The position numbers and the translations under genes are program-made. A stretch of 64,000 nucleotides of DNA from Cupriavidus taiwanensis LMG 19424 (GTDB lineage: Bacteria > Pseudomonadota > Gammaproteobacteria > Burkholderiales > Burkholderiaceae). Positions 8,288 to 29,792 of the stretch are shown piece by piece; position 1 is the first letter of the stretch, and each line of letters begins with the position of its first letter. The notes under the pieces were generated by a model, which was not told where the DNA came from, searched no databases, and saw nothing but the letters and a program-made list of their open reading frames with translations. The DNA lies in NCBI RefSeq assembly GCF_000069785.1, contig NC_010528.1, forward strand, positions 930,001 to 994,000, in the 5' to 3' direction.

Positions 8288-11200
8288 TTAGAAGGCACGG
8301 ATCATGGCGAGCGCGGAGATATTGCGAACCCGAACTTCCGCGCCGCCGTCTGCATTGACCGTGATTGCGTGGCTGTGATTGCCGGCGTAGCCGACCCCTA
8401 CGTTGTGTGCGTGCGAGCCATCGCCGGCGATCGAGATGCCGGTATATGAGGCGGATGTACCGGCCCACGCGTCGGCGTTCGTTACGTAAGAACCAGAGAC
8501 GCGTCCAGCGCCGGTGGCCCCACCGCCGGTCCAGGTCTGGAAGCTATGGGCATGGCCGGGATCGTTGACGCCATGACCGTGCCAGCCTTGCGCATCGGTC
8601 CAGGCGCCGTGGTTGTGGTCGCCGACTGGTGTAGCGGAGGCGGCGTGCGAGTGCGTCTTGTTCTGGCTGTCCTGGAACACACCGATGCCCCGGCCAGCGT
8701 CCGCGCCGCGTGCGTCGTCCCAAAACCGCAGGTATTCGCCGCGATACTCAGGGATGCGGAACGTCGTGTTGCCATCGCCGTGGGAGAAGCATCCCCAGGA
8801 GCCGGCGAGCCATGCGGCATCCGTCACGATCGCGCCGCTTGCCTGAGCGTAGGCCCACAGCTCGGGGTAGTCCGCACGCTTAAGTAGCGCGCCGTTCAGC
8901 TTCAAGCAGCCTGCGCGCGCGGTGGTGCGCGGCTCGATGATGATTTGCCCAACAGAGGCGGTTAGCAGAGTCGACATGACCCACGCGGTCGTCGCCAGCT
9001 TGCGCGAGCTGTCGCCGGCCGGCGGGGTGTCAGCCGTCGCGTAGCCGGTTACCTGCAGTTTCGCACCGCTTCCATCGGTCGCGGTATTGCCGATTCGCAG
9101 CTCGCCGTTGTCTGCAAGGCGCATCTTCACGGCCCGCGCAGTGGTCCCCGGCGCGGTGGTGCGGAAATCCATATGCGCGCCGCGGGCCGTCGTGGTGTAG
9201 TTCTCGCTCGCGACAACCTCGACTTGCGCAGCGACGTTCATGCCGACGCCATCGGAGCCGCAGAAATTGACATGGCCCAGCGGGTCGCCGGAAAGAACGG
9301 CGCCTTGGGTCGTTACGGTGACACCGCGCGACTTACCAATGTTGATGCCGGCCGGTTGGGTGTCATTCGAAAACCGGGCCGTGTTGATGTAGCTGTCGTT
9401 GCCGGTGGCAGCATTCTGGATTCCTGCAATGGAGGTTGCCCCGACCGCAAGGTCAGCGTCCAGGCCGCGGTATAGGCGGGTAGCGATGCTGGCCGACCCA
9501 GCGACTTGCAGCAGATTGCCGTTGTCGGCAGTAGTGCCGAGCAGCAGCTTGCCTGCGAGGTGGTTCGATGCGGTACCGTCCCCATACAGGTTCCACTTGT
9601 CAGGACCTGCGCCCATGCGAAGCCGCGCGCCGATCTTGCGCAGAATGTTCGGCAGCGTCACGTCATTTGCCATAAGACCGGCGTACTCTGTCACGGTCGC
9701 ACTGGCGCCAACCACTGGCGTGGGTGCGAAGAAGCCGACAAGGCTTGCCATCGTGAAGGCGGCGTCCTTGACCCTCGGGATCGACGAATAGGTGGCTCCG
9801 GTGCTCGTGGCCGTTTCGTTGAACTCCACGTTGTTGTAGATGCCATGCTGCGAAACGGCTCCGCCAGGTATCGGCAGCCCCATACGAATGGCTGCAGCGG
9901 ACGAAAGCGGCCCGCCGACTGCCATGTATCCATCGGCGCTGAACAGGAACTGGTACGCGTAGCTGCCAGGCGCGGCAGTGGTGTCGAAGGACACTGACAG
10001 AATGCTGCCGTCCGCCATCAATTGAGCATTGCGAGCGCCTGCGGACCGGTCAATGAGCTGCACGCCAGGCCCGTATGACTCGATAGCCAGGCCGCCACTC
10101 GGCCCGTTCGCAGCTTGCGTATTCCCCCCGTCGATGATTCGAGCGGTCGGCGCGTTGATGGCGGGCCAGCCGGACGTTTGCAGGCCGATCACGCCGCCGG
10201 CCTTGTCGAACTTATTGCCCAGCTGTGTCGTGACGGTGGTCGCAAAATTCGGGTCGTTCCCCAGGGCCTCGGCCAGCTCCTTGAGCGTGTCGAGGGTGCC
10301 CGGAGACGAGGCGACCAGGTCGGCGATAGCCGCCATCACGAATTCAGTGCTCGCGGCTTGCTTGGTGGTTGTGCCCTTGGCTGCAGTCGGGACCAGCGGG
10401 GTACCGACAAAGGTCGGGCTATCGAGAAGGGCGAGTTCCTTCCAGGCCTGCCACGCATTGCTGGTGCGACGGCGAAATACGATGCGGTCGGAGCTATACG
10501 GAGAGAAGAGCTGAAATCCAGCGGTTCCGTACGGGCGATGCAGCGCCACACCTGGCCCGAGGTTCAGCGGGACATTGATTGCTGCGCCGGGAACATAGAG
10601 CAAACCTCCCGGCACGGTGGCGTCGTCCATATCGGTGATGGCGCCTTCGGTGCCGACCCCGCCGAACCCCAGCAGCTTTAGTCGCGCGAGCAGCTTCTTC
10701 GCGGTCACGGCGCGCGCATCATCGGTTCCCTGGTCAACCTCCGTCTGCGTGGCAATTTCCAAGAGCCCGGTGCGCGTTTCTGTCGCGGTGCGCGACGAGA
10801 GGCCGGCCGGCGTGACGGACCGCGTTGCGTCCGTGCCGGTTTGGGTTTCGCTGTTGGTGGCCAGCTCGACCAGGCCGGTGCGCGTATCGGTTGCGGTGCG
10901 CGACGAGAGGCCTGCCGGCGTGACGGACCGCGTTGCGTCCGTGCCGATTTGCGTTTCGGTGTTGTCGGCCAGCTCGACCACACCCTTTACCGTGGTGGTG
11001 GCGGGCGGATTGAGGAACGATGTGTTGCCGAACGTCAGCGCCGCGGTGTCGACCGTGGTCAGCAGGATATCGGTCGCCAGCAGCATCATCGCTGCCGGCG
11101 ACTTCTCCACGATGGGCGTGTCCTGGCCGTAGGTGCCGAGCAGCACCCCGTTGTCCAGGTACAGGCCGAACCCGTACATGGTGTACTGGTCGGCCGAGTT

Positions 11201-20399: not shown

Positions 20400-22181
20400 A
20401 TGACTACGCTTCCGCCTCTTTCCATCCATTCGTTCGATCCAGAAATGGAGCCGCGGCGCATCGCGCGCGCGCTCTACTGGCAGGGCTATCGTGTCGCGCG
20501 CATTGCGGAAATGCTTCGCGTGAAGCCGGTGACCGTACACAGCTGGAAGCGCCGCGACGCGTGGGACAAGGCGGATGCCGTGGAGCGCATCGGGACCAGC
20601 ATCGAGGCGCGCATGGCGCTGCTGGTGGCCAAGGAGAAGAAGGAAGGGAAGGATTACAAAGAGATCGACCTGCTCGGGCGGCAGATCGAGCGCCTGGCTC
20701 GCGTGCGGAGGTATGAGGACAGCGGAAACGAGGCCGATCTCAACCCGAAGGTGGCCAACCGAAACAAGGGCCCGCGCAAGAAGCCGGAGCGCAATGCGAT
20801 CAGCGACGAGGAGCAGGGCCAGCTGGTCGACGCCTTCATGGATTCGATGTTCGACTATCAGCGCGTCTGGTACGAGGCCGGCCTGGTCGAGCGCATCCGC
20901 AACATCCTGAAGAGCCGGCAGATCGGTGCTACGTGGTACTTCGCCCGCGAAGCCTTTATCGATGCGCTGACCAGGGGCCGCAACCAGATTTTCCTGTCGG
21001 CCAGCAAGGCGCAGGCCCACGTCTTCAAGCACTACATCATCCAGTTTGCCAAGGACGCCGCAGGCGTGGAGTTGAAGGGGGATCCGCTGGTGCTGCCCAA
21101 CGGCGCGACGCTGTATTTCCTCGGCACCAACGCGCGCACGGCCCAGAGCTATCACGGCAATCTGTACCTTGACGAATACTTCTGGATCCAGCGCTTCCAG
21201 GAGCTGCGCAAGGTGGCCTCCGGCATGGCGATCCACGCGAAGTGGCGGCAGACATATTTCTCGACGCCATCGAGCCTGGCGCATGAGGCGTATCCCTTCT
21301 GGTCGGGCGCCTTGTTCAACCGCGGCCGCAGGAAAGACCAGCATGTGCAGGTGGACGTCAGCCACGCGCATCTGCAGGCAGGCCGGCGCTGCGCGGACGG
21401 GCAGTGGCGCCAGGTGGTGACCGTCGAGGATGCGGTGCGCGGCGGCTGCAACCTGTTCGACCTGGAGCAGCTGCGCCGCGAGTACAGCGACGCCGACTTC
21501 GAGAACCTGCTGATGTGCGGCTTCATTGACGACACGGCATCCGTCTTCCCATTGTCGATGCTGATGCGCTGCATGGTAGACAGCTGGGAAGTCTGGGAGG
21601 ACTTCCGCCACTGGTCGCCGCGCCCGCTGGGCAACCGTGAAGTGTGGGTGGGCTACGACCCCAACGGTGGCGGCGGTGACAGCGCCGCGCTGGTGGTGGT
21701 TGCGCCGCCGCTGGTGCCGGGCGGCAAGTTCCGCGTTCTCGAGAAACACCAGTTCCGCGGCATCGACTACGAGGAGCAAGCCGCGGCCGTCCTCAAGGTG
21801 TGCGAGCGCTACAACGTGACCTACATTGGCATCGACCGCACCGGCGTCGGCGATGCCGTCTATAAGGTCGTGCTGAAGACACGCCCCGAGGCGCAGGGCT
21901 TCACTTATTCGGTCGACGTGAAGACCGGGCTGGTGCTCAAAGCTACCGACGTCATCAGCAAGGGACGCCTGGAGTTCGATGCCGGTTGGACTGACTTCGC
22001 CGCGTCGTTCATGTCGATCCGCAAGACCACCACGGCCGCCGGCGGCCGTGTCACCTACCAGGCTGGCCGCTCCGAAGAAACGAGCCACGCCGATCTGGCA
22101 TGGGCGTGCATGCACGCGCTGGCCCATGAGCCGATTGAGGGCGTGACCACCACCAACACCAGCATTCTGGAGTTCTCATGA
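20400..22181 (+). CDS. P: Terminase large subunit (ATPase) P
   Basis: 593 residues. The N-terminus has a helix-turn-helix (YRVARIAEMLRVKPVTVHSW, residues about 27-47). The ATPase domain has a Walker-A-like KSRQIGAT near residue 172 and the YLDEYFWI Walker-B segment near 260. The C-terminal RNase-H-like nuclease region has VGYDPNGGGGDSA. It powers DNA packaging into the prohead. Overlaps Q by four bases. Confidence 0.97.
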   Translation: MTTLPPLSIHSFDPEMEPRRIARALYWQGYRVARIAEMLRVKPVTVHSWKRRDAWDKADAVERIGTSIEARMALLVAKEKKEGKDYKEIDLLGRQIERLARVRRYEDSGNEADLNPKVANRNKGPRKKPERNAISDEEQGQLVDAFMDSMFDYQRVWYEAGLVERIRNILKSRQIGATWYFAREAFIDALTRGRNQIFLSASKAQAHVFKHYIIQFAKDAAGVELKGDPLVLPNGATLYFLGTNARTAQSYHGNLYLDEYFWIQRFQELRKVASGMAIHAKWRQTYFSTPSSLAHEAYPFWSGALFNRGRRKDQHVQVDVSHAHLQAGRRCADGQWRQVVTVEDAVRGGCNLFDLEQLRREYSDADFENLLMCGFIDDTASVFPLSMLMRCMVDSWEVWEDFRHWSPRPLGNREVWVGYDPNGGGGDSAALVVVAPPLVPGGKFRVLEKHQFRGIDYEEQAAAVLKVCERYNVTYIGIDRTGVGDAVYKVVLKTRPEAQGFTYSVDVKTGLVLKATDVISKGRLEFDAGWTDFAASFMSIRKTTTAAGGRVTYQAGRSEETSHADLAWACMHALAHEPIEGVTTTNTSILEFS

Positions 22182-23218
22182 CCCGCAAGAAATACCGCGG
22201 CGCGGCCAACGGCGCCGCACCTGTGCCGGCCGAACCGGCGCGCGATGCCTCTGTGGAGGCCTTCAGCTTCGGCGATCCGGTGGCGGTCCTGGACCGCCGA
22301 GAGCTGCTCGACTACGTGGAGTGCTTGCGCGTCGGCGACTGGTATGAGCCGCCGCTGCCGTGGGATGGCTTGGCGCGCAGCTTCCGCGCGGCCGTCCATA
22401 ACAGCTCGCCGATCTATGTGAAGCGCAACATCCTGGTCTCCACGTTCATTCCCCACAAGCTGCTGTCGCGTTCGGCCTTCGCGCGGTGGGTGCAGGATTT
22501 TCTGGTGTTCGGCAACGGGTATCTGGAGCGGCGGGACAACGTGCTGGGCAAGCCCATCGCGCTGGAACCGGCGATGGCCAAGTATGTTCGCCGGGGCGTG
22601 GATCTGGAGACCTACCACTTCGTGCAGAACTGGCAGGACACGCACACCTTCAAGCGGGGCAGCATCTTTCACCTGCTGGAGCCGGACATTAACCAGGAGG
22701 TGTACGGGCTGCCCGAATACCTTTCGGCGCTCAACGCTACCTGGCTCAATGAATCGGCCACGCTGTTCCGCCGGCGCTACTACAAGAACGGCAGCCACGC
22801 CGGCTTCATCCTGTACATGACCGATGCCGCGCAGAAGCAGGAAGACGTGGATGTCCTGCGCAAGGCGCTCAAGGAGTCCAAAGGGCCGGGCAATTTCCGT
22901 AATCTGTTCATGTACGCGCCAGGAGGAAAGAAGGACGGCATTCAACTGCTGCCGGTCTCCGAGGTGGCTGCCAAGGACGAGTTCTGGAACATCAAAAACG
23001 TGACGCGCGACGACCAACTGGCCGCGCACCGCGTGCCGCCCCAGTTGATGGGGATTATTCCTAACAACACCGGCGGCTTCGGTGACGCTGAGAAGGCCGC
23101 CATGGTCTTTGCCCGCAACGAGGTCAAGCCGCTGCAGGACCGACTGGTGGAAGTGAATGACTGGCTAGGGCAGGAGATCGTGCGCTTCGAGCCTTATGAA
23201 TTGGCCTCTGGCCGTTGA
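22178..23218 (+). CDS. Q: Portal protein Q
   Basis: 346 residues, PBSX/P2 gpQ portal family. Landmarks are EAFSFGDPVAVLDRRELLDY, the GNGYLERRDN segment and RVPPQLMGIIPNNTGGFGD. It forms the 12-subunit vertex through which DNA enters and to which the tail joins. P2 gpQ is 344 residues. The ATG lies within the P stop overlap. Confidence 0.97.
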   Translation: MTRKKYRGAANGAAPVPAEPARDASVEAFSFGDPVAVLDRRELLDYVECLRVGDWYEPPLPWDGLARSFRAAVHNSSPIYVKRNILVSTFIPHKLLSRSAFARWVQDFLVFGNGYLERRDNVLGKPIALEPAMAKYVRRGVDLETYHFVQNWQDTHTFKRGSIFHLLEPDINQEVYGLPEYLSALNATWLNESATLFRRRYYKNGSHAGFILYMTDAAQKQEDVDVLRKALKESKGPGNFRNLFMYAPGGKKDGIQLLPVSEVAAKDEFWNIKNVTRDDQLAAHRVPPQLMGIIPNNTGGFGDAEKAAMVFARNEVKPLQDRLVEVNDWLGQEIVRFEPYELASGR

Positions 23219-23263
23219 TCGAAGGGCGCTACTTATCGTCCGACGATCAATGGAAGGGGCAAA

Positions 23264-23602
23264 TCAGAAGGCCTTTACATCTACGACTTTGGCCGTCGCC
23301 ACTTCGCTGTACGGCGACAGCGCCTGTATTTGCCATGACTGTCCTGGTTCCAACGCAGTGGTGTTGGCCATGGCAATTCCAAGTTGTGTACCAGCGGCGT
23401 CATAAAGAGCAAACGTGACCGAAATCAGGCCGGTCGTGCGCCTTGAGTTGTTGGTCATGATGCCCTTCACCATGGCGAGCCCAGAAGGCGCTCTGATGAG
23501 TTCGAGGCTCGAGATCGGAAGGCTCGTAACTTGAGCCTGTGCTGCGGGTACGCAAATCACTGCAGCCATTGCTGCAAAGGCATACCGGGCGAGATAGGGC
23601 AT
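23264..23602 (-). CDS. Secreted FxLYD-domain protein (prophage cargo)
   Basis: 112 residues starting MPYLARYAFAAMAAVICVPA, with a Sec signal peptide cleaved after AAQA. The mature part is one FxLYD domain: MTNNSRRTTGLISVTFALYD with the FALYD core, then TALEPGQSWQIQA. It is probably periplasmic or secreted. It lies convergent with portal gene Q and belongs to no P2 core function, so it looks like a lysogenic-conversion gene. The target is unknown. Confidence 0.7.
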   Translation of the reverse strand: MPYLARYAFAAMAAVICVPAAQAQVTSLPISSLELIRAPSGLAMVKGIMTNNSRRTTGLISVTFALYDAAGTQLGIAMANTTALEPGQSWQIQALSPYSEVATAKVVDVKAF

Positions 23603-23666
23603 ATGTTGATCCACAAAGCGTTGAGATGGCCCCGGCCTTGATGGATGGAGGCCGGGGCGAGCGGGT

Positions 23667-23912
23667 TCAGCCAAGCACCTTAGCCAGGTGATGTAAGCCA
23701 ATCCACATGAGGAGGAACGGAGGCACGATGTCACCCCAGTCTATGTGCTTCACTCCAGCCGCCACCTGTGTCTGAATGGCCATTACGCATGCGCCAAATG
23801 CGGCTGCTGTAGCGATTCCCGCCGCAATTGCGATGACCTGCCGATTGTCGAATATCAGCACTGCAAAGACTGCGGCGAAAGCGACGAAGCTGAAAAACGG
23901 TCTGAATTTCAT
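23667..23912 (-). CDS. Small inner-membrane protein (prophage cargo)
   Basis: 81 residues starting MKFRPFFSFVAFAAVFAVLI, with a GAGGTG ribosome site five bases upstream. Three hydrophobic segments: residues 5-20, 25-45 (VIAIAAGIATAAAFGACVMA) and about 62-77 (PPFLLMWIGLHHLAKVL). No recognised family. Likely the middle gene of a DUF2188-membrane-FxLYD unit. A GTG start at 23924, overlapping the DUF2188 stop, is an alternative. Confidence 0.65.
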   Translation of the reverse strand: MKFRPFFSFVAFAAVFAVLIFDNRQVIAIAAGIATAAAFGACVMAIQTQVAAGVKHIDWGDIVPPFLLMWIGLHHLAKVLG

Positions 23913-23920
23913 GTCGCACC

Positions 23921-24154
23921 TCACCGCTTCTTATCCCGCGGAGGGAAAGGGTCATTGCCATAGCTATCGCTATCTTGAATGCGCCCATTCCGACCATGCA
24001 CGACAAGCTCAACCTTGTCGCGCCGCGCCTGATCGCGCCCGATGCTAAGCGCATCTGCTTTGGTCGGCGCGACTACGCCAACGCGTGTTGCGCCTTCACG
24101 GCGCGTGGCCCAGCCGTCCTTATGGGGGACAACGTGGATATCCTTCTTTGGCAT
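23921..24154 (-). CDS. DUF2188 domain protein
   Basis: 77 residues starting MPKKDIHVVPHKDGWATRRE and ending with the family signature ELVVHGRNGRI followed by DSYGNDPFPPRDKK. DUF2188 proteins are small, soluble and widespread in bacteria and phages, with no settled function. The start is placed at the conserved MPKK, 14 codons inside the longest frame. First gene of the three-gene leftward unit. Confidence 0.8.
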   Translation of the reverse strand: MPKKDIHVVPHKDGWATRREGATRVGVVAPTKADALSIGRDQARRDKVELVVHGRNGRIQDSDSYGNDPFPPRDKKR

Positions 24155-24396
24155 TTTGAGACTCCTAAGTTCGAGTGTTCCCGCCCCGGTCGGCAACGCC
24201 TACCGGGAGCGGCATAGCTGCAATTGATTTGCTTATCGCTTAGTGCGGAGCGCTGCGCAGGTGGGAACACACAAACTCAGGACGGCCGAACCGAACCCTC
24301 GTGTATGCGCACACACGTACGACTTTGGGACGCTGGTTCAGAATGAACATGACGTAACCCTCCGTAGTGATCTCGCCTCGAGGTGGAACTTAGGCC
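24155..24396. other. Non-coding gap before the sRNA candidate
   Basis: No ORF with natural composition. It contains short dyads such as TGCGCACACACGT but nothing assignable. It should hold the promoter of the DUF2188 unit, on the minus strand. Confidence 0.4.
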
Positions 24397-24425
24397 TTGA
24401 TTGATCCGATATCCCTGCATAGAAT
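24397..24425 (+). promoter_or_regulatory. Strong sigma70-like promoter for a short transcript
   Basis: TTGATT (24397-24402), a 17-base spacer, then TAGAAT (24420-24425). No ORF of note follows before a terminator about 70 bases downstream. Confidence 0.55.
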
Positions 24426-24431
24426 ACCGGT

Positions 24432-24531
24432 CGCACACAATCATATGCTCTAAGAGAAGGTCGGAGGCTCTTGTTCGACTTTCTTTTCCCAGAAGCGCCT
24501 TGCGAGCTGCAACTCACAAGAGCGCTTTTTT
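24432..24531 (+). ncRNA. Candidate prophage small RNA (about 100 nt)
   Basis: Delimited by the promoter at 24397-24425 and an intrinsic terminator at 24493-24531. It contains no plausible coding frame. It lies immediately beyond the ImmA stop codon, convergent with the repressor operon, so its 3' end meets the ImmA mRNA. An immunity-region regulatory RNA is possible. The target is unknown and the start site is inferred. Confidence 0.4.
24493..24531 (+). terminator. Rho-independent terminator
   Basis: AAGCGC (24493-24498) pairs with GCGCTT (24522-24527). Inside are TTG/CAA and GAG/CTC pairings and a six-base loop, followed by a run of six T. Confidence 0.65.
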
Positions 24532-25057
24532 ATTTCCCCTTCGCGTACAGTCCAAGCTGATACACGGCAGCGTCCAAAGAAACGCCACACTGGCGCGCTA
24601 CATCAATTGCGCTCATGCCGTTCACGAGGTGCTTCGGCACAAGCAATTCACCCTGAAAGCACTTGGCCTGCCACTCGGGATCCTCGTAGGACTTCAACTC
24701 CCCACCGAAATGGCGATGTAGCGCCGGGGACCGCGCATGCATGAGGTAGTGGCCTGCTTCATGCGCAACGGTTCCGCGATCTCGGCCCTCATCCTCATAG
24801 GCCCGGTAGTAGATATCCTCCCGGATCTTGATCGCTACATCGTCTCCATCTCTAGTGGTCAGGCCGTGGGAAGATCCCAGCTCCTCGAACTCGACCACCT
24901 CGAAGGTGTAGTTCTTGTCCAGTTGTGGCAATGCATGCTCCACGAACTCGAGGACCGGGAACCAAAGCCTGTGAGCTAAGCCCAGCTCCTTCCTAAGCTC
25001 ATAGGCAGCCTCCCGGATATCACCCCTGCTTAGCGGCGTTGCTTTGAAACTGTGCAT
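24530..25057 (-). CDS. ImmA/IrrE-type metallopeptidase
   Basis: 175 residues with the zinc-protease motif HEAGHYLMH (about residue 98) in an ImmA/IrrE (DUF955) domain. A downstream EWQAKCFQGELLVP segment is typical of the family, and the C-terminal part looks like a helix-turn-helix (MSAIDVARQCGVSLDAAVYQ). Such proteases cleave the neighbouring repressor to allow induction. The start is coupled to the repressor stop through TAATG. Control of prophage induction is therefore likely. Confidence 0.88.
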   Translation of the reverse strand: MHSFKATPLSRGDIREAAYELRKELGLAHRLWFPVLEFVEHALPQLDKNYTFEVVEFEELGSSHGLTTRDGDDVAIKIREDIYYRAYEDEGRDRGTVAHEAGHYLMHARSPALHRHFGGELKSYEDPEWQAKCFQGELLVPKHLVNGMSAIDVARQCGVSLDAAVYQLGLYAKGK

Positions 25058-25431
25058 TATTTGCCGTCTCCTCGCCGCTTGAGCAACAGCATCGCCTGCT
25101 TAAGGCTAGCAAGTTGATCATCTGAGAGGTCTCCGAACTGCCGCGCCAGAGCAACTGCCGCGCTCCGTCGTTCCTCGCTCTGATTTGCCAGGTCGATCGT
25201 GACACTACGTGCAGAGGCATCAATCGCGGACTGCATTTGGCTCACAGCTGCCGGCGGCAGCTTATAGGCGTCGGTGAGAGATTTTGTCCAGGTCGGTGGG
25301 ATGCTTTTCTTGCCGGTTTCAACTGCCGACAGGAACGCAGCGGACACGCCCAGCTTGTCGGCCATGTCCTTCATGAGTTCTGTGTGTTGGTGCCGCAATT
25401 CCCGAAGGAAGCGGCCGAAGCTAGTCAGCAT
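25057..25431 (-). CDS. XRE-family cI-like prophage repressor
   Basis: 124 residues. The N-terminal helix-turn-helix (residues 8-60) contains MKDMADKLGVSAAFLSAVET. There is no LexA-type autoprotease domain, which fits control by the adjacent ImmA peptidase instead of RecA-stimulated self-cleavage. The C-terminal part is helical. It is transcribed from a promoter inside the four-half-site operator at 25459-25499, implying autoregulation. Confidence 0.88.
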   Translation of the reverse strand: MLTSFGRFLRELRHQHTELMKDMADKLGVSAAFLSAVETGKKSIPPTWTKSLTDAYKLPPAAVSQMQSAIDASARSVTIDLANQSEERRSAAVALARQFGDLSDDQLASLKQAMLLLKRRGDGK

Positions 25432-25456
25432 GGGAATCCCCTTGTTTCTGGATGCT

Positions 25457-25485
25457 ATTTAACCACTGCAGGTTGATTTAGTCAA
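25457..25485 (-). promoter_or_regulatory. Repressor promoter
   Basis: On the minus strand TTGACT (25485-25480), a 17-base spacer, then TTAAAT (25462-25457). The -35 lies inside the central operator half-site and the -10 overlaps the outer one. Confidence 0.6.
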
Positions 25486-25499
25486 CCTCTGTTGGTTAA
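25459..25499. promoter_or_regulatory. Symmetric four-half-site immunity operator
   Basis: TTAACC-N6-GGTTGA-N5-TCAACC-N6-GGTTAA, a perfect nested inverted repeat centred at 25479. It lies directly upstream of the repressor gene. Two divergent -35 elements fall inside it: TTGACT leftward and TTGATT (25473-25478) rightward. The rightward -10, TTAAGC, is weak. Confidence 0.7.
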
Positions 25500-25923
25500 G
25501 CATAAGAGAGCCGAGGGGAAATTGCCAGCGGCGTGAAGGCGCTACCTCGCCCGCCCCCGACTAGGCACAGACACACGCCGCAACGTACATAGAACGCATC
25601 GCGCAATGCCTTGGTGGCTCAGAGCCAGCCTGGCATGCCAACCCGAGGCGCGCGGGATGCCACCCCGGCCGTGCCTTAGCCCACGGCGCGCGGTGGAGAC
25701 CCCGCCTCACCCGCCCGCTTCATCGGGTGGTTTTTATGCGGGTGCATAAAGCCTAGCCCCGCGCCTGTGCTGGCATCCTTGGCGGAAGGGCCCCTGCACC
25801 GACTTATGCGGATTTATGCATTTGGCCATTCCAGTGAGCCGCCATCGGGGACTTTCCTGACGCCTCCGTCCGCCTAGCCTTTCACCGGGCCCGGCGCGCG
25901 ATCGGCAAGTTCAGAACCAGGCG
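25500..25923. other. Gap with a hairpin and TTATGC repeats
   Basis: No convincing ORF where cox and early genes should start. It holds a CACCCG/CGGGTG hairpin followed by GTTTTT (25708-25735). Four copies of TTATGC or its complement lie at 25733-25739, 25744-25750, 25803-25810 and 25813-25820, the first two forming a 7-4-7 inverted repeat. Confidence 0.5.
25708..25735 (+). terminator. Possible rho-independent terminator
   Basis: CACCCG (25708-25713) pairs with CGGGTG (25724-25729), followed by GTTTTT. Six-bp stem and ten-base loop, so moderate strength. It would stop rightward transcripts from the immunity operator. Confidence 0.4.
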
Positions 25924-26228
25924 GGGGTAGGGAAAAAGGTAACCTCGGTAACCAATCCCGAAAACCGAAGCTAAATCTTTGATTTTTAAGGGGGAAGATG
26001 GTTACCTCGGAAAGGTAATCTGAGGTAACCATAAAGGTAACCTCCCGATAAGTCATTGATTTCATTGGAAATCGGTCTCCATCGAGGTTACCTTTGGAAA
26101 GGGTAATCTGGTTACCCTAAAGTTACCCCAATGTTACCTTTTGGCTGAACCCCGGAACGCCTTATCCCACAAGGCTTTGCGGGCTGTTTTCGCGCTGAGG
26201 TTACCGAGGTTACCTTTTTCCCGACCCC
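25924..26228. repeat. 305-bp GGTWACC iteron-like element with 30-bp inverted ends
   Basis: The ends at 25924-25953 and 26199-26228 are inverted copies with one mismatch in 30. Nine perfect GGTAACC/GGTTACC palindromes lie at 25938, 25947, 26000, 26024, 26036, 26086, 26110, 26199 and 26208, with four one-mismatch copies at 26014, 26102, 26121 and 26132. A 23-25 bp direct repeat occurs at 26000 and 26086. The interior has AT-rich tracts. It could be a replication origin, a regulator-binding array or a small non-autonomous element. No target duplication was seen. Confidence 0.8.
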
Positions 26229-26257: not shown

Positions 26258-26277
26258 TACTGTGTTTTTATACAGTA
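26258..26277. promoter_or_regulatory. LexA (SOS) box
   Basis: TACTGTGTTTTTATACAGTA contains the CTGT-N8-ACAG core (26260-26263 and 26272-26275) with palindromic flanks, very near the consensus. It lies 30 bases after the iteron element and seven bases before an ATG at 26285. Confidence 0.75.
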
Positions 26278-26668
26278 TCGCTCCATGACGGACGAAAGAG
26301 ATCCCGAAGCTCACAGCAGCATTCTTGGGCGCAAGACTTGGCCGAAAGCGACCAGGCAGACTCGCGGCCGCGGCGCATGGCTGGGCACCACTTCCGCCGC
26401 GGTTGACCCCGACATAGATGCGCGCCATGTACCAGCGCAACCGGACCCCCGAGGTTCGGGCGCTGTTGTGGGAGATTGCGTGGCTGCAGCGCACCGTGTA
26501 GCCCAGTTTGCGGCATGCTTTCTGGTATACGACGGCATGATGAACAGAACGGTGCCGGGTGGTGCTCGGCGCGAAGGCGTGCTGTGACATCATCTTCCAC
26601 GTGCCACGGCGCCGACACCACCCATTCAGGTCATAATTCCCTCAGCGCCCTTTGGAAGTAGCGATGTT
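26278..26668. other. Region downstream of the LexA box with no confident gene
   Basis: A 100-codon frame begins at 26285 (MTDERDPEAHSSILGRKTWP) but has poor composition and competes with an opposing frame. A tiny frame at 26418-26501 encodes a natural-looking 27-residue peptide (RNRTPEVRALLWEIAWLQ) that stops abruptly. It may be the start of a decayed phage gene. Confidence 0.35.
26418..26501 (+). CDS. 27-residue ORF, possible gene remnant
   Basis: MRAMYQRNRTPEVRALLWEI and seven more residues, ending WLQRTV. Charged, helical and plausible as the N-terminus of a small phage protein. The downstream sequence has no continuation in frame. No clear ribosome site. Not recognised. Confidence 0.25.
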   Translation: MRAMYQRNRTPEVRALLWEIAWLQRTV

Positions 26669-27052
26669 ATGAATTCACCACGCCGGGTTCCCGCTCCTCA
26701 TCCGCTCCGGACAGAACGGCTTACGAAGTCGCAATACCTTCGTGAAGCGCGTAACGCATGCCTCAGTCTCAGTGTGCCGCCTGGCATCATAGGGCCGTAC
26801 AAGGCTCGATCACTGAACTGGAACGCGAACACGTACTACTACGTCTTTGGCCAGGAGCTTGCCGGGCCCCCTCGGCTCATTGAGGTTTTTCGGGTGAACG
26901 GAAACGGCGAGCTGTACCCCGTGCCCGCCTTTCAATACCCGGAACCATTCAAGGAACTGTTCCCCACTGATTACGCCATCTTGTATAGCGACGATCCGTG
27001 GGACGGTGCTTTTCCCCCAGCCAAGAGAAGCGAAGTATTCGAGGGAGATTGA
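26669..27052 (+). CDS. Hypothetical prophage protein, 127 residues
   Basis: Starts MNSPRRVPAPHPLRTERLTK. A soluble protein rich in Tyr, Pro and aromatic residues (NANTYYYVFGQELAGPPRLI, PTDYAILYSDDPWDGAF), with no signal or membrane segment and no recognised family. Composition is that of a real protein. It lies in the early region between the LexA box and the integrase, the usual place for phage accessory genes. No function can be assigned. Confidence 0.6.
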   Translation: MNSPRRVPAPHPLRTERLTKSQYLREARNACLSLSVPPGIIGPYKARSLNWNANTYYYVFGQELAGPPRLIEVFRVNGNGELYPVPAFQYPEPFKELFPTDYAILYSDDPWDGAFPPAKRSEVFEGD

Positions 27053-27558
27053 GTGGCTTAGCAGGGCAGCGATCGCTACGCCAACTTGACGCGCTCGCCG
27101 CCCGGCCCTAGGTTTTTCCTTTGTCGGACTGCGCCGGATAGCGACAGCCGCTCGGCGGGCGGAGACTAGCCGCATCAACAGACAGGAGACAGCCATGCCA
27201 GGCAAGATCGTCTACGTCTGCCCGCTGGCGATCAAGGCTCATACGCGAACGTCTAGACTGTTCAGGGAGCGCTGTTCCAGCGGCGTGGTTCGCAGGACAT
27301 CGGAACATGATACGACGTTGAAAAGGACTTGCACTCCTGCTGTTGGCGGAGATCTACATCAACAGACCGCCCTTCCTCTACCCTACAAAGGCGGGGCGGC
27401 ATTCTGGGAGCGTGCTTCCTACTATTTGCATCAGATTCGAGGGGCAGTGACTGCGGTAGCCGTACTGGGCCCTGGCCTATGCAGCCAGGGCCTTTTCATT
27501 TGGCGGCTTAGATCCTCCCCGCGTAGGGGCATCCGCCGTTTTCCTGAAGGAGTCTTTA
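27053..27558. other. Gap with a doubtful ORF and a terminator
   Basis: An ATG at 27195 has a good CAGGAGAC ribosome site. Its 136-codon frame, however, runs through the strong terminator at 27468-27496 and has unnatural composition, so it is at best a truncated gene. Nothing else is supported. Confidence 0.4.
27468..27496 (+). terminator. Rho-independent terminator
   Basis: GGCCCTGGC (27468-27476) pairs perfectly with GCCAGGGCC (27484-27492) across a seven-base loop, followed by TTTT. Confidence 0.7.
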
Positions 27559-27807
27559 ATGTCGGAATCAAACACTTTGTCCGAAACGCCCACCTGGTCC
27601 TATGAAGAGGTTACGGCTGTGACGGAGGACTCTATCCGTTTCCTCCTCGAGAAATCGGACAAGGACATCGGGATGGGACGTCGGGACGAGTGGGTTGCAT
27701 ATGGGCTGTATCTCGGCTGGTCAAAGCTGACCGCAGGACGAAGGAAGCCTGAGGATGACAAGCGATTGCACGAACTCACCCGACGCTTCAGGGATGCAGG
27801 CGAGTAG
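27559..27807 (+). CDS. Hypothetical prophage protein, 82 residues
   Basis: Starts MSESNTLSETPTWSYEEVTA, preceded by a GAAGGAG ribosome site. A soluble, acidic then charged helical protein (SIRFLLEKSDKDIGMGRRDE, LHELTRRFRDAGE). No recognised family and no membrane segment. A terminator just upstream separates it from earlier transcripts, so it probably has its own promoter. Confidence 0.65.
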   Translation: MSESNTLSETPTWSYEEVTAVTEDSIRFLLEKSDKDIGMGRRDEWVAYGLYLGWSKLTAGRRKPEDDKRLHELTRRFRDAGE

Positions 27808-27872
27808 CAAACTCTCTGTCCCCCGCAATGCGGCCGTTACGGGGCTCCTTTCATCCAAAGGTTCTCACCCAA

Positions 27873-27907
27873 TTGTGGTATAAAGTTAAGAGCATATATA
27901 TACTCTT
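27873..27907 (+). promoter_or_regulatory. Possible promoter with inverted repeat
   Basis: TTGTGG (27873-27878), a 16-base spacer, then TATATA (27895-27900). The -10 lies inside AAGAG...CTCTT (27888-27907). The terminator at 27944 follows 37 bases later, so any product would be a very short RNA. Confidence 0.3.
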
Positions 27908-27943
27908 GGCGTGCGCAACTCATGATGCTCACATCCCGTTGAA

Positions 27944-27969
27944 CCCTCGGTCCCCCGAGGGTTTTTTTT
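27944..27969 (+). terminator. Strong rho-independent terminator
   Basis: CCCTCGG (27944-27950) pairs with CCGAGGG (27955-27961) across a four-base loop, followed by eight T. Confidence 0.75.
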
Positions 27970-28048
27970 GGGGCGGGCGCGCTGTTGGCAAAGCGAACGA
28001 TGACCGCCTTACCGGCCGAAGTGGTCGTCTGTGAGGCGGTTATTCGAC

Positions 28049-28170
28049 TGCACCTAAATTGCACCTATGGTGGGCTGGATCGGCCTTTGGTGACTTTGTT
28101 CGACCTTGGTTTTGCAGTTTGCGACTTGCGCAAGGCGTTGATTTATAAAGCGTCTTAATTTGTCACCAAA
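28049..28170. repeat. Short repeats downstream of the integrase
   Basis: TGCACCTA occurs twice (28049-28056 and 28060-28067). TTTGGTGAC (28086-28094) is repeated inverted as GTCACCAAA (28162-28170). They could bind a recombination factor, but nothing proves it. Confidence 0.35.
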
Positions 28171-28275
28171 ACTCCGAAGGTTGTGCTCGCTCGACGGTGC
28201 CGGTAGCCCTATCGGTTGATCAGTTTTGAGAATCGGGAAAGGCCCAACCACATCTGTATCCTGTGCCGTCGTCAA
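28054..28275 (-). CDS. Possible small protein downstream of the integrase
   Basis: 73 residues from a TTG codon (MTTAQDTDVVGPFPILKTDQ), ending IGAI. Composition is plausible (KLRRFINQRLAQVANCKTKV). It lies 22 bases after the integrase stop on the same strand and overlaps the inverted repeats at 28086-28170. The weak start and lack of a clear ribosome site keep confidence low. Confidence 0.3.
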   Translation of the reverse strand: MTTAQDTDVVGPFPILKTDQPIGLPAPSSEHNLRSFGDKLRRFINQRLAQVANCKTKVEQSHQRPIQPTIGAI

Positions 28276-28296
28276 GATATTTCACTGGGGCGCTGC

Positions 28297-29553
28297 TCAG
28301 CAACTCCCATCAGTTGCCCACAGAGGCGGCATGGTGCCCAGCGGGATAACAGCTGCTGCTTGGCCGGAGCAGTAGTGCGCCCAGTCCCTCATCATTTTGC
28401 GCCGGCGCTCAAGCATGTCGCCCCGACGGTAGGCCGCTTCGCTTTCGTTCTGGATTGCGTGGGCCAGCGCCATTTCTGCAAGCGAGTCCGCATATTCTGT
28501 GCAGTCGGCCACCCAATCCCGGAAGGTCGAGCGGAAGCCGTGCACGGTGACATGTCCGTAGCCCATTCGCTCAAGCAGCTTAAGCATGGCCATGTTAGAG
28601 AGCGGCTTCCCCTTCTTCCGGCCCGGATAGAGCCAGCCGTCTCGCGCGCCAGGCAATGCTGCCTCAACCAGCTCGACGAGGCGATCGGTCATTGGCACAC
28701 GTAGGGGCAATTCCATCTTCATGCGTTCGCCCGGTACAGTCCAGACGCGATAACGCATGTCGAATTCCTCGGGTCTCGCAAATTGGACCTCCTGCGTGCG
28801 CACAACCGTCAGGATCAGGTGCTCGAGCATGCGAGCGGCAGTCCCGCGCTGCTCGCGTAGTTCCTTCATAAAGCTGGGGATTTCCTGCCACGGTAGCGCT
28901 GGGTGATGCTTGATCTTTTTGCGCCGATTCTGTTTGGGGAGCAGCTTGTCGAGGTGGCCCCGCCAGCGTGCCGGATTCTCGCCCTCGCGGTGTCCAAGCG
29001 CCTTTTCGGCATCGAGTATGCATTCGAGGCGCCCACGCAGTCGGAACGCTGTTTCGCGCTTCTTGATCCAGATCGGCTGCAGCACCTGCACGATCATAGC
29101 CGTGTCGATGTCGCGCACGTCTTGATCACCAAGGATTGGGGCTGCGTAGGTGGCGATCGTGTTTGTCCATTGCTGGGCGTGCTTCTCGTTCTTCCACCCG
29201 GCACGATGCTTGGCGATGTAGTCGGCCGCTGCAGCCTTGAATAGGCGCGGTCCGGACAATTCGAGCATGCGTTGCCGCTGCTTGCACTTCCGCGCCTCAA
29301 TGGGATCGACTCCATCTCGAAGAAGGTCTCGGCATTTTGCGGCTTCTGCGCGCGCTGCAGCCAGCGAGACGGAAGCCAGGGGGCCCAGTCCCATTTCGCG
29401 CGACCGGCCGCGCAGCGTGAACTTAAAGATCCAGGAGCGCGAGCCAGACTCAGAGATCTGGAAATAGAGGTTGCCGCCGTCCGGGTAATGCCCCGGTACA
29501 TCCAGCTTGCCGATCTTCAGCGCCGTGAGCCGATGCAGTTGCCGTGTTGCCAC
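28297..29553 (-). CDS. int: Prophage tyrosine integrase, P4/DUF4102 type
   Basis: 418 residues. The N-terminal arm-binding DUF4102 domain has LTALKIGKLDVPGHYPDGGN and YFQISESGSRSWIFKF (residues 8-45). A core-binding SAM-like domain lies at about 110-210. The catalytic domain has the Arg in VVRTQEVQFARPEEFD, HGFRSTFRDW (His-X2-Arg) and LAHAIQNESEAAYRRGD (His and Tyr nucleophile). It reads away from tRNA-Ser, the usual layout for this family, and should recombine attP with the tRNA 3' end. Confidence 0.95.
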   Translation of the reverse strand: MATRQLHRLTALKIGKLDVPGHYPDGGNLYFQISESGSRSWIFKFTLRGRSREMGLGPLASVSLAAARAEAAKCRDLLRDGVDPIEARKCKQRQRMLELSGPRLFKAAAADYIAKHRAGWKNEKHAQQWTNTIATYAAPILGDQDVRDIDTAMIVQVLQPIWIKKRETAFRLRGRLECILDAEKALGHREGENPARWRGHLDKLLPKQNRRKKIKHHPALPWQEIPSFMKELREQRGTAARMLEHLILTVVRTQEVQFARPEEFDMRYRVWTVPGERMKMELPLRVPMTDRLVELVEAALPGARDGWLYPGRKKGKPLSNMAMLKLLERMGYGHVTVHGFRSTFRDWVADCTEYADSLAEMALAHAIQNESEAAYRRGDMLERRRKMMRDWAHYCSGQAAAVIPLGTMPPLWATDGSC

Positions 29554-29702: not shown

Positions 29703-29740
29703 TGGCGGAAGCGGTGAGATTCGAACTCACGGATGGGTCA
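29703..29740. other. Probable right attachment site in tRNA-Ser 3' end
   Basis: The 3' half of the tRNA-Ser gene faces the integrase, 149 bases from its start codon. P4-type integrases use such tRNA ends. The crossover sequence itself cannot be defined without the left copy. Confidence 0.5.
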
Positions 29741-29792
29741 CCCCATCGGCAGTTTTCAAGACTGCTGCCTTAAACCACTCGGCCACGCTTCC
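29703..29792 (-). tRNA. tRNA-Ser (anticodon UGA)
   Basis: 90 bases on the minus strand. Acceptor GGAAGCG pairs with CGCTTCC, discriminator G and encoded CCA (29705-29703). The anticodon loop CTTGAAA lies in a CAGT/ACTG stem. A long variable arm (GATGGGGTGACCCATC) and a GTTCGAATC T-arm are present. Likely attachment gene of the prophage. Confidence 0.95.

Follow-up and report, generated by a model that had tools for sequence, protein, structure and literature searches.

A 13-iteron array as the proposed replication origin of a P2-like prophage in Cupriavidus taiwanensis

Replication of the P2 type depends on gpA, a nickase whose origin is located inside its own gene. P4 uses an ori/crr arrangement together with alpha, an element-encoded primase-helicase, and its iterons lie apart from the gene. 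The system described here can be likened to P4 in its element-coded primase and in the location of its iterons away from the gene; here, however, the Rep protein matches TOPRIM models, whereas alpha is another primase type and the P4 origin is two-part, with other iterons. P2 and Fels-2 possess capsid, tail, terminase and portal proteins related to those of the present prophage, but Fels-2 has gpA and no array. The nearest published description that we encountered is that of the pri-rep-ori modules of PICI/SaPI elements, in which two iteron sets are arranged around an AT-rich stretch, the primase/initiator is the element's own and the words are element-specific (PMC6092414). Unlike these modules, the locus reported here belongs to a full P2-like phage, combines 13 sites with IHF-consensus sites and is accompanied by a TOPRIM Rep of PHROG 1139. 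Moreover, the array is not directly 3' of rep as in PICI, but lies across attP from it, at a distance of 3.5 kb plus 1.9 kb (~5.4 kb) on the circular phage. The paper on Stenotrophomonas phage Smp131 reports a primase, and its extracts describe no origin array and do not contain the word 'iteron' (PMC3931495). In the corresponding extracts, the iterons of Pseudomonas Pf-5 belong to a plasmid-like island and not to its P2-like prophage (PMC2647930), and a Francisella phage has a lambda-like four-iteron origin within a gene (PMC7924643). In the open-licence literature searched, we found neither a published description of this array nor one of how replication starts in gpA-less P2-like phages.

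We analysed a window of 64,000 nucleotides from C. taiwanensis LMG 19424 (contig NC_010528.1, positions 930,001 to 994,000), and coordinates below refer to this window unless the contig is named. Based on repeat and homologue comparison, we propose that an array of 13 iterons at 25924..26228, with a 30-nt inverted repeat as its ends, is the replication origin of a P2-like prophage and is read by the prophage-encoded Rep. We give this reading a probability of roughly 0.77.

Sequence and layout of the array

The array is situated within a P2-like prophage, whose tyrosine integrase (28297..29553, minus strand) is followed by a tRNA-Ser gene (29703..29792, minus strand). The last 14 nt of this tRNA gene (29703-29716) form the attachment core, and a second copy of the 14-nt tRNA end is present at contig position 920774. 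When joined at the core, the prophage flanks match contiguous DNA in relatives: G008 shows 94% identity over 514 nt, G015 shows 89%, and further genomes give long matches; the prophage therefore measures ~38.9 kb and spans contig positions 920774-959716. The terminase large subunit (P; 20400..22181) and the portal protein (Q; 22178..23218) are encoded on the plus strand. To the left of the window, the prophage codes for AlpA, an Ogr-like zinc finger, an XRE-like gene and the 903-aa Rep. GC skew, computed over the 64-kb window only, gave no origin signal.

The ends of the array (25924-25953 and 26199-26228) are inverted repeats of 30 nt with 97% complementarity, consistent with the single mismatch of the first-pass annotation. 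Its counts of nine perfect and four one-mismatch copies of GGTWACC were likewise reproduced: the nine exact copies start at positions from 25938 to 26208 and the imperfect ones at 26014, 26102, 26121 and 26132, which gives 13 sites in all. The whole window contains 11 exact copies, against 2.42 expected and a maximum of 6 in 100 shuffles, and just two of these, at 9047 and 30218, fall outside the array. At the shuffled window rate, 0.0115 copies are expected in 305 bp and the Poisson probability of nine or more is ~1e-23. The array is also poorer in GC than its surroundings (0.472 versus 0.60 in 1 kb on each side). An internal direct repeat at 26000 and 26086, noticed earlier, is real, in the form of a diverged block of ~36 nt with small indels (partly read by eye).

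The array opens with iterons 1 and 2 (GGTAACC at 25938 and 25947; 25938..25953, plus strand), followed by an IHF-consensus site, AATCAAAGATTTA (25972..25984, minus), iteron 3 (26000..26006, minus) and iterons 4 (GGTAATC, 26014), 5 (26024) and 6 (26036) on the plus strand (26014..26042). A central IHF-consensus site, AATCAATGACTTA (26049..26061, minus), aligned across arrays, separates these from iterons 7 (26086, minus), 8 (26102, plus), 9 (26110, minus), 10 (26121, minus) and 11 (26132, minus), which occupy 26086..26138. The interval between iterons 11 and 12 holds an imperfect hairpin segment (26145..26185; pairing by eye), and iterons 12 and 13 (26199..26214, minus) complete the series. The strand order is thus + + - + + + to the left of the centre and - + - - - - - to its right, two iteron sets converging on an AT-rich middle with an IHF-consensus site. 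The spacing of the 13 iterons is fixed and common to 39 aligned arrays, and even at the weakest site the assigned strand scores better than the opposite one in 37 of 40 arrays, with at most one array departing from it at any other site. With the IHF consensus, 45 exact sites were called in 42 arrays, compared with a mean of 1.9 and a maximum of 6 in 100 shuffles, and 34 of the 42 arrays have at least one. Two attributes of iteron origins are accordingly present: one directional word regularly spaced in a short non-coding stretch (42 arrays; spacing in 39), and an AT-rich opening region with sites for bending proteins, as judged by GC and by IHF-consensus counts.

The repeat unit had been described as palindromic. 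Relatives use GGTAATC, GGTAACA or CCTAACC instead, each of the 13 sites favours one strand, and the palindromic look is best read as an accident of the GGTWACC word in this lineage. The inverted ends might also bring to mind a MITE, that is, a small transposable element with 30-nt terminal inverted repeats, but these ends are the ordinary iterons 1-2 and 12-13. The scattered copies with target-site duplications by which such an element was to be recognized were not encountered; the host genome holds one complete copy, and the array keeps a constant place in P2-like prophages. The MITE was rejected on these last two grounds, and we regard it as scarcely credible.

As a separate observation, the hairpin segment resembles, with 84-96% similarity over 25-44 nt, a chromosomal site present in many relatives. 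In the host this site (G000:C1:799321-799360; L004) lies between ompA-like and gyrA-like genes, and it is also seen in L015-L033.

Association of the array with Rep

Residues 4-898 of Rep match PHROG 1139 'DNA primase' (E=0), and Pfam TOPRIM models match the protein as well; no Pfam helicase model did so, and a structure-database search returned no match. The protein starts with a cysteine-rich, zinc-ribbon-like segment, and across 48 aligned relatives cysteines 33, 36, 53 and 59 and a P-loop at ~559-565 are invariant. The array had been viewed as replacing the replication operon, in the place of cox, B and A. That view gave way once the PHROG 1139 Rep was located at the far prophage end near attL, outside the window. 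P2-type gpA (PF05840) was found in none of 11 array genomes, while the same model does match in the E. coli control, and P2-type replication was rejected on this absence.

Does the array travel with Rep? Among 100 relative genomes (own included), 10 carry a full-length array (G010 twice), and G027 carries a partial array. Rep is present in nine, and all nine have a full array; in G010 the two Reps and two arrays lie on the same two contigs, and in G051 Rep is split across two contigs. No Rep accompanies the partial array of G027 or the array and terminase of G057. Another 23 genomes of the 100 match the array only via a 25-44-nt piece, which corresponds to the chromosomal site described above. 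The terminase, found in 12 of the 100 genomes, provides a useful comparison. G080 and G090, with terminases of 68 and 66% identity, lack both an intact Rep and an array behind the portal, whereas G066 and G014, with terminases of 63 and 58% identity, have both Rep and array; the array therefore goes with Rep rather than with the capsid module. On other contigs, G080 has a C-terminal fragment of the Rep family and G090 an orphan array.

Rep relatives are numerous, with at least 526 in 600 candidate IMG/VR stretches and 408 in 572 from species genomes, and 80 records of each kind were carried forward. The portal was sought in 75 Rep records and found in 33 of 37 virus and 35 of 38 genome records, the DNA behind it being read in 24 and 29, respectively. 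In Rep-bearing genomes, all 28 full 10-kb regions read behind the portal contained an array (E<=1e-3), and 17 of these regions had not been used for the model; the remaining genome region, L243, ended after 3 kb and showed no array. In virus contigs the array was present in 19 of 24 regions, and the five misses end 1.7-4.0 kb past the portal. Genome regions were left out for G140 (portal on another contig) and for G159, G160, G162, G171 and G173 (portals 32-41% alike), as were six virus records in which the contig stops at or near the portal and three whose portals are 42-43% alike. Some virus contigs duplicate other loci with equal scores (L215 = L034, L217 = L035, L198 = L114).

In 399 genomes of the order, 15 give an array match (R1) at E<=0.001, which is strong (at least 90 bits) in nine, partial in G304 (50 bits) and of 20-27 bits in five; these last we took for chance. 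Full-length Rep (>1000 bits) occurs in five of the 399, each of them with a strong array, and no close full-length Rep without an array was seen in the genomes examined. PHROG 1139 itself matches 232 of the 399 at E<=0.001, in most cases by a weak match to the TOPRIM part. In 48 genomes (e.g. G270, G193, G308) the match scores 127-408 bits and is to a remote or partial member of the Rep family, and only G268 among these has a strong array; such remote relatives may use other words or other origins. Four of the nine strong arrays (G090, G211, G232, G268), together with the partial array of G304, are without a full-length Rep.

These orphan arrays (loci L270-L274) include G090:C32:5611-5917 and G211:C23:56942-57248. 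By eye, the G232 copy stands beside broken portal and terminase pieces, that of G268 is eroded and that of G304 is apparently cut by an insertion; the G090 and G211 arrays are fairly intact, with little phage context, and a similar small protein gene adjoins both. Orphan arrays could possibly be remnants, or decoy or incompatibility sites.

Named phages show how far the association extends. Nine of 21 Rep-positive phage records were examined and five matched the array model: Stenotrophomonas phage Smp131, Pseudomonas phages Dobby, D14A and Sirocco, and Halomonas phage 4908. Their Reps belong to the same family (44-51% identity), and Dobby, D14A and Sirocco differ in the iteron word, AATTACC. 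The Rep of Smp131, translated from the annotated CDS, runs out of register near its end and served as a search seed only. The other four Rep-positive records (ESSI2, phi3, UFJF_PfPro, ZY1) were unmatched. In three of them, which are more distant Rep phages (32-46% identity), another word is repeated near int or rep: CGTCCAC after int in ESSI2, CCGGAAC just after rep in phi3, and TGTCAG, in a similar layout by eye, in UFJF_PfPro. The ZY1 record (Rep 50% identity) contained no array or repeated word. The model matched none of three phages without a PHROG 1139 Rep (KS5, AP3, Fels-2), even at E<=1. KS5 (L325:2142-4937) and AP3 (L326:31291-34083) encode another CHC2/TOPRIM primase, missed by the Rep search, and have no such array. 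BLASTN searches of phages and plasmids with the array as query gave no match at 1e-5, because the iteron word diverges; the arrays were found by the Rep-guided route. A scan for repeated words within 10 kb around Rep in 160 loci was mostly negative, as expected for an array and a Rep gene at the two far ends of the integrated prophage.

Iteron words, neighbouring genes and other readings

The consensus words of 42 arrays are GGTAATC (8), GGTAACC (7), GGTAACA (5), GGTAATT, GGTAATG and GGTAATA (3 each), CCTAACC (3) and rarer others. Change of the word is coordinated within an array: iteron identity is 0.783, compared with 0.644 (sd 0.0023) once sites are exchanged between arrays at random, and in L230 all 13 sites have CC for GG. 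Against three close relatives (L215-L217), the iterons of the present array are 98% identical and the spacers 65-74%. Mantel tests were run on 42 of 48 trios, the other six being dropped for a stop in the Rep reading frame. Iteron and Rep distances are correlated (r=0.285, p=0.0002) and remain so after control for portal distance (r=0.183, p=0.015); once Rep is controlled for, portal distance adds nothing (r=0.062, p=0.26). The iteron word thus appears to follow Rep more than the portal, with the qualification that the correlations are modest and that shared phage ancestry explains part of the linkage. When the iteron-Rep correlation was slid along Rep in 30 windows, weak peaks appeared at residues 31-180 and 841-903; the best partial correlation, at residues 871-903, was r=0.211 (p=0.008, uncorrected), and we claim no binding domain from it.

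Could the array be part of the packaging machinery? A cos-like motif (GGTGAGGCGGGG...CGCGCGC; 25686..25711, minus strand), which resembles P2 cos, lies ~200 bp from the array. A packaging element, in which the array would be part of cos and be bound by terminase or a helper when the DNA is cut, would agree with the presence of such a motif ~100-280 bp away in 48 of 71 loci, among which neither its side nor its orientation varies. Yet the distance grows to 1.0-1.45 kb in L039, L218, L219, L235 and L241, the motif was not found in 18 of the 71 loci, and the array is absent from KS5, AP3 and Fels-2 and from behind the G080 and G090 portals despite related portal and terminase proteins. AP3, whose annotated cos ends we compared by eye, has neighbouring TGCATAA repeats (also by eye) and no array. 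With the cos distance variable and a cos without array in AP3, nearness to cos is therefore common but not fixed. The array goes with Rep, not with the packaging genes, and the iterons track Rep, not the portal; a packaging role is in our estimate quite unlikely.

The genes around Rep and the array bear on the question of what binds the iterons. Across 118 loci, and depending on the query locus, the recurring genes are Rep (118), Ogr (84-109), an HTH gene (79-86) and tail genes U and D (80-84), so that Rep is the sole recurrent replication gene among these neighbours. A phage repressor or activator could in principle use the array as a regulatory site controlling the LexA-flanked transcript or the integrase. 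The recurrence of the HTH repressor-like and Ogr genes near Rep favours such a role, as does a LexA-box-like sequence, CTGTGTTTTTATACAG (26260..26275), adjoining the array. This box, which resembles the LexA consensus, had been pointed out earlier and is real, with a counterpart beside eight of 12 Cupriavidus-type arrays examined, the window included. A small ORF (MRAMYQRNRTPEVRALLWEIAWLQRTV; 26418..26501, plus strand) comes after it and is recognisable beside six of the 12. Against a regulatory array, HTH and Ogr genes are general in P2-like phages and are also annotated in the array-less KS5 and AP3, the genes to the right of the array vary, and an operator made up of 13 separate sites across 280 bp, together with IHF sites, would be unusual. 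We consider regulation an unlikely main function. Since HTH and Ogr also occur in array-less KS5 and AP3, Rep remains the best candidate for binding the iterons, the HTH repressor-like product being the alternative binder. Of the three options offered initially, comparison thus lends good support to an iteron-like origin, while a regulator array fits less well and a small transposable element is set aside.

Iteron-type arrays can also serve partition. A centromere-like partition or incompatibility site, bound by a ParB-like protein of the phage, would draw on the ParB-domain gene of D14A; the prophage is, however, integrated, and no partition gene is among the identified recurrent neighbours of Rep, which makes this reading very unlikely.

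Several features of the surroundings deserve mention in their own right. The small ORF, containing ...YRRNRSPEVRALLWEIARLH..., is present beside the array in the window (26418-26501) and in L034, L035, L037, L038 and L044, and possibly encodes an SOS-induced small protein. An ImmA/IrrE peptidase and HTH pair (24530..25431, minus strand) had been assigned to the immunity region. Located in the variable stretch that separates portal from cos, this pair has no match in 11 relatives and is probably cargo. The phage repressor is more likely the product of the XRE-like gene near Rep (L045:15308-15889), and HTH genes occupy the corresponding place near Rep in relatives. In the compared relatives, cos and array sit between two variable cargo stretches (23218-25700 and 26500-28300 in the window); those of relatives carry restriction-modification, TIR-like, DprA-like and DUF4062-like genes (by eye) and resemble the P2 defence hotspot.

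A model for initiation of replication

How might such an array start replication? Iteron origins are read by an initiator of the same element, and the PHROG 1139 Rep encoded in this prophage is, we infer, the cognate one. In our model, the prophage excises and circularizes, and Rep would then bind the 13 directional, AAAGGTAACC-like iterons, presented as two sets that converge on a central AT-rich region bent by IHF. Rep, possibly in the capacity of a helicase, would open the duplex in this central region, and replication would begin at the array through the protein's ATPase and primase parts, as in iteron origins with an element-coded primase/helicase. The fixed layout, the linkage with Rep, the conservation of iterons above spacers, the IHF-consensus sites and the coordinated change of the word, all drawn from sequence comparison, are compatible with this scheme.

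What are the implications for P2-like phages? As a tentative extension, which we think doubtful as a whole, the array might represent a distinct class of origin that defines a large P2-like branch: 13 iterons, IHF-containing, usually beside cos and served by a TOPRIM-type Rep. Words that switch together would then delimit replication-specificity groups, and near-intact copies without Rep, such as that of G211, might act as incompatibility or decoy sites against phages with the same word. The analysis provides a candidate origin, a likely initiator and a detection model for a family with at least 526 relatives on virus contigs and 408 on genome contigs. In addition, the matched series of proteins and DNA words would allow the joint change of origin and initiator specificity to be studied.
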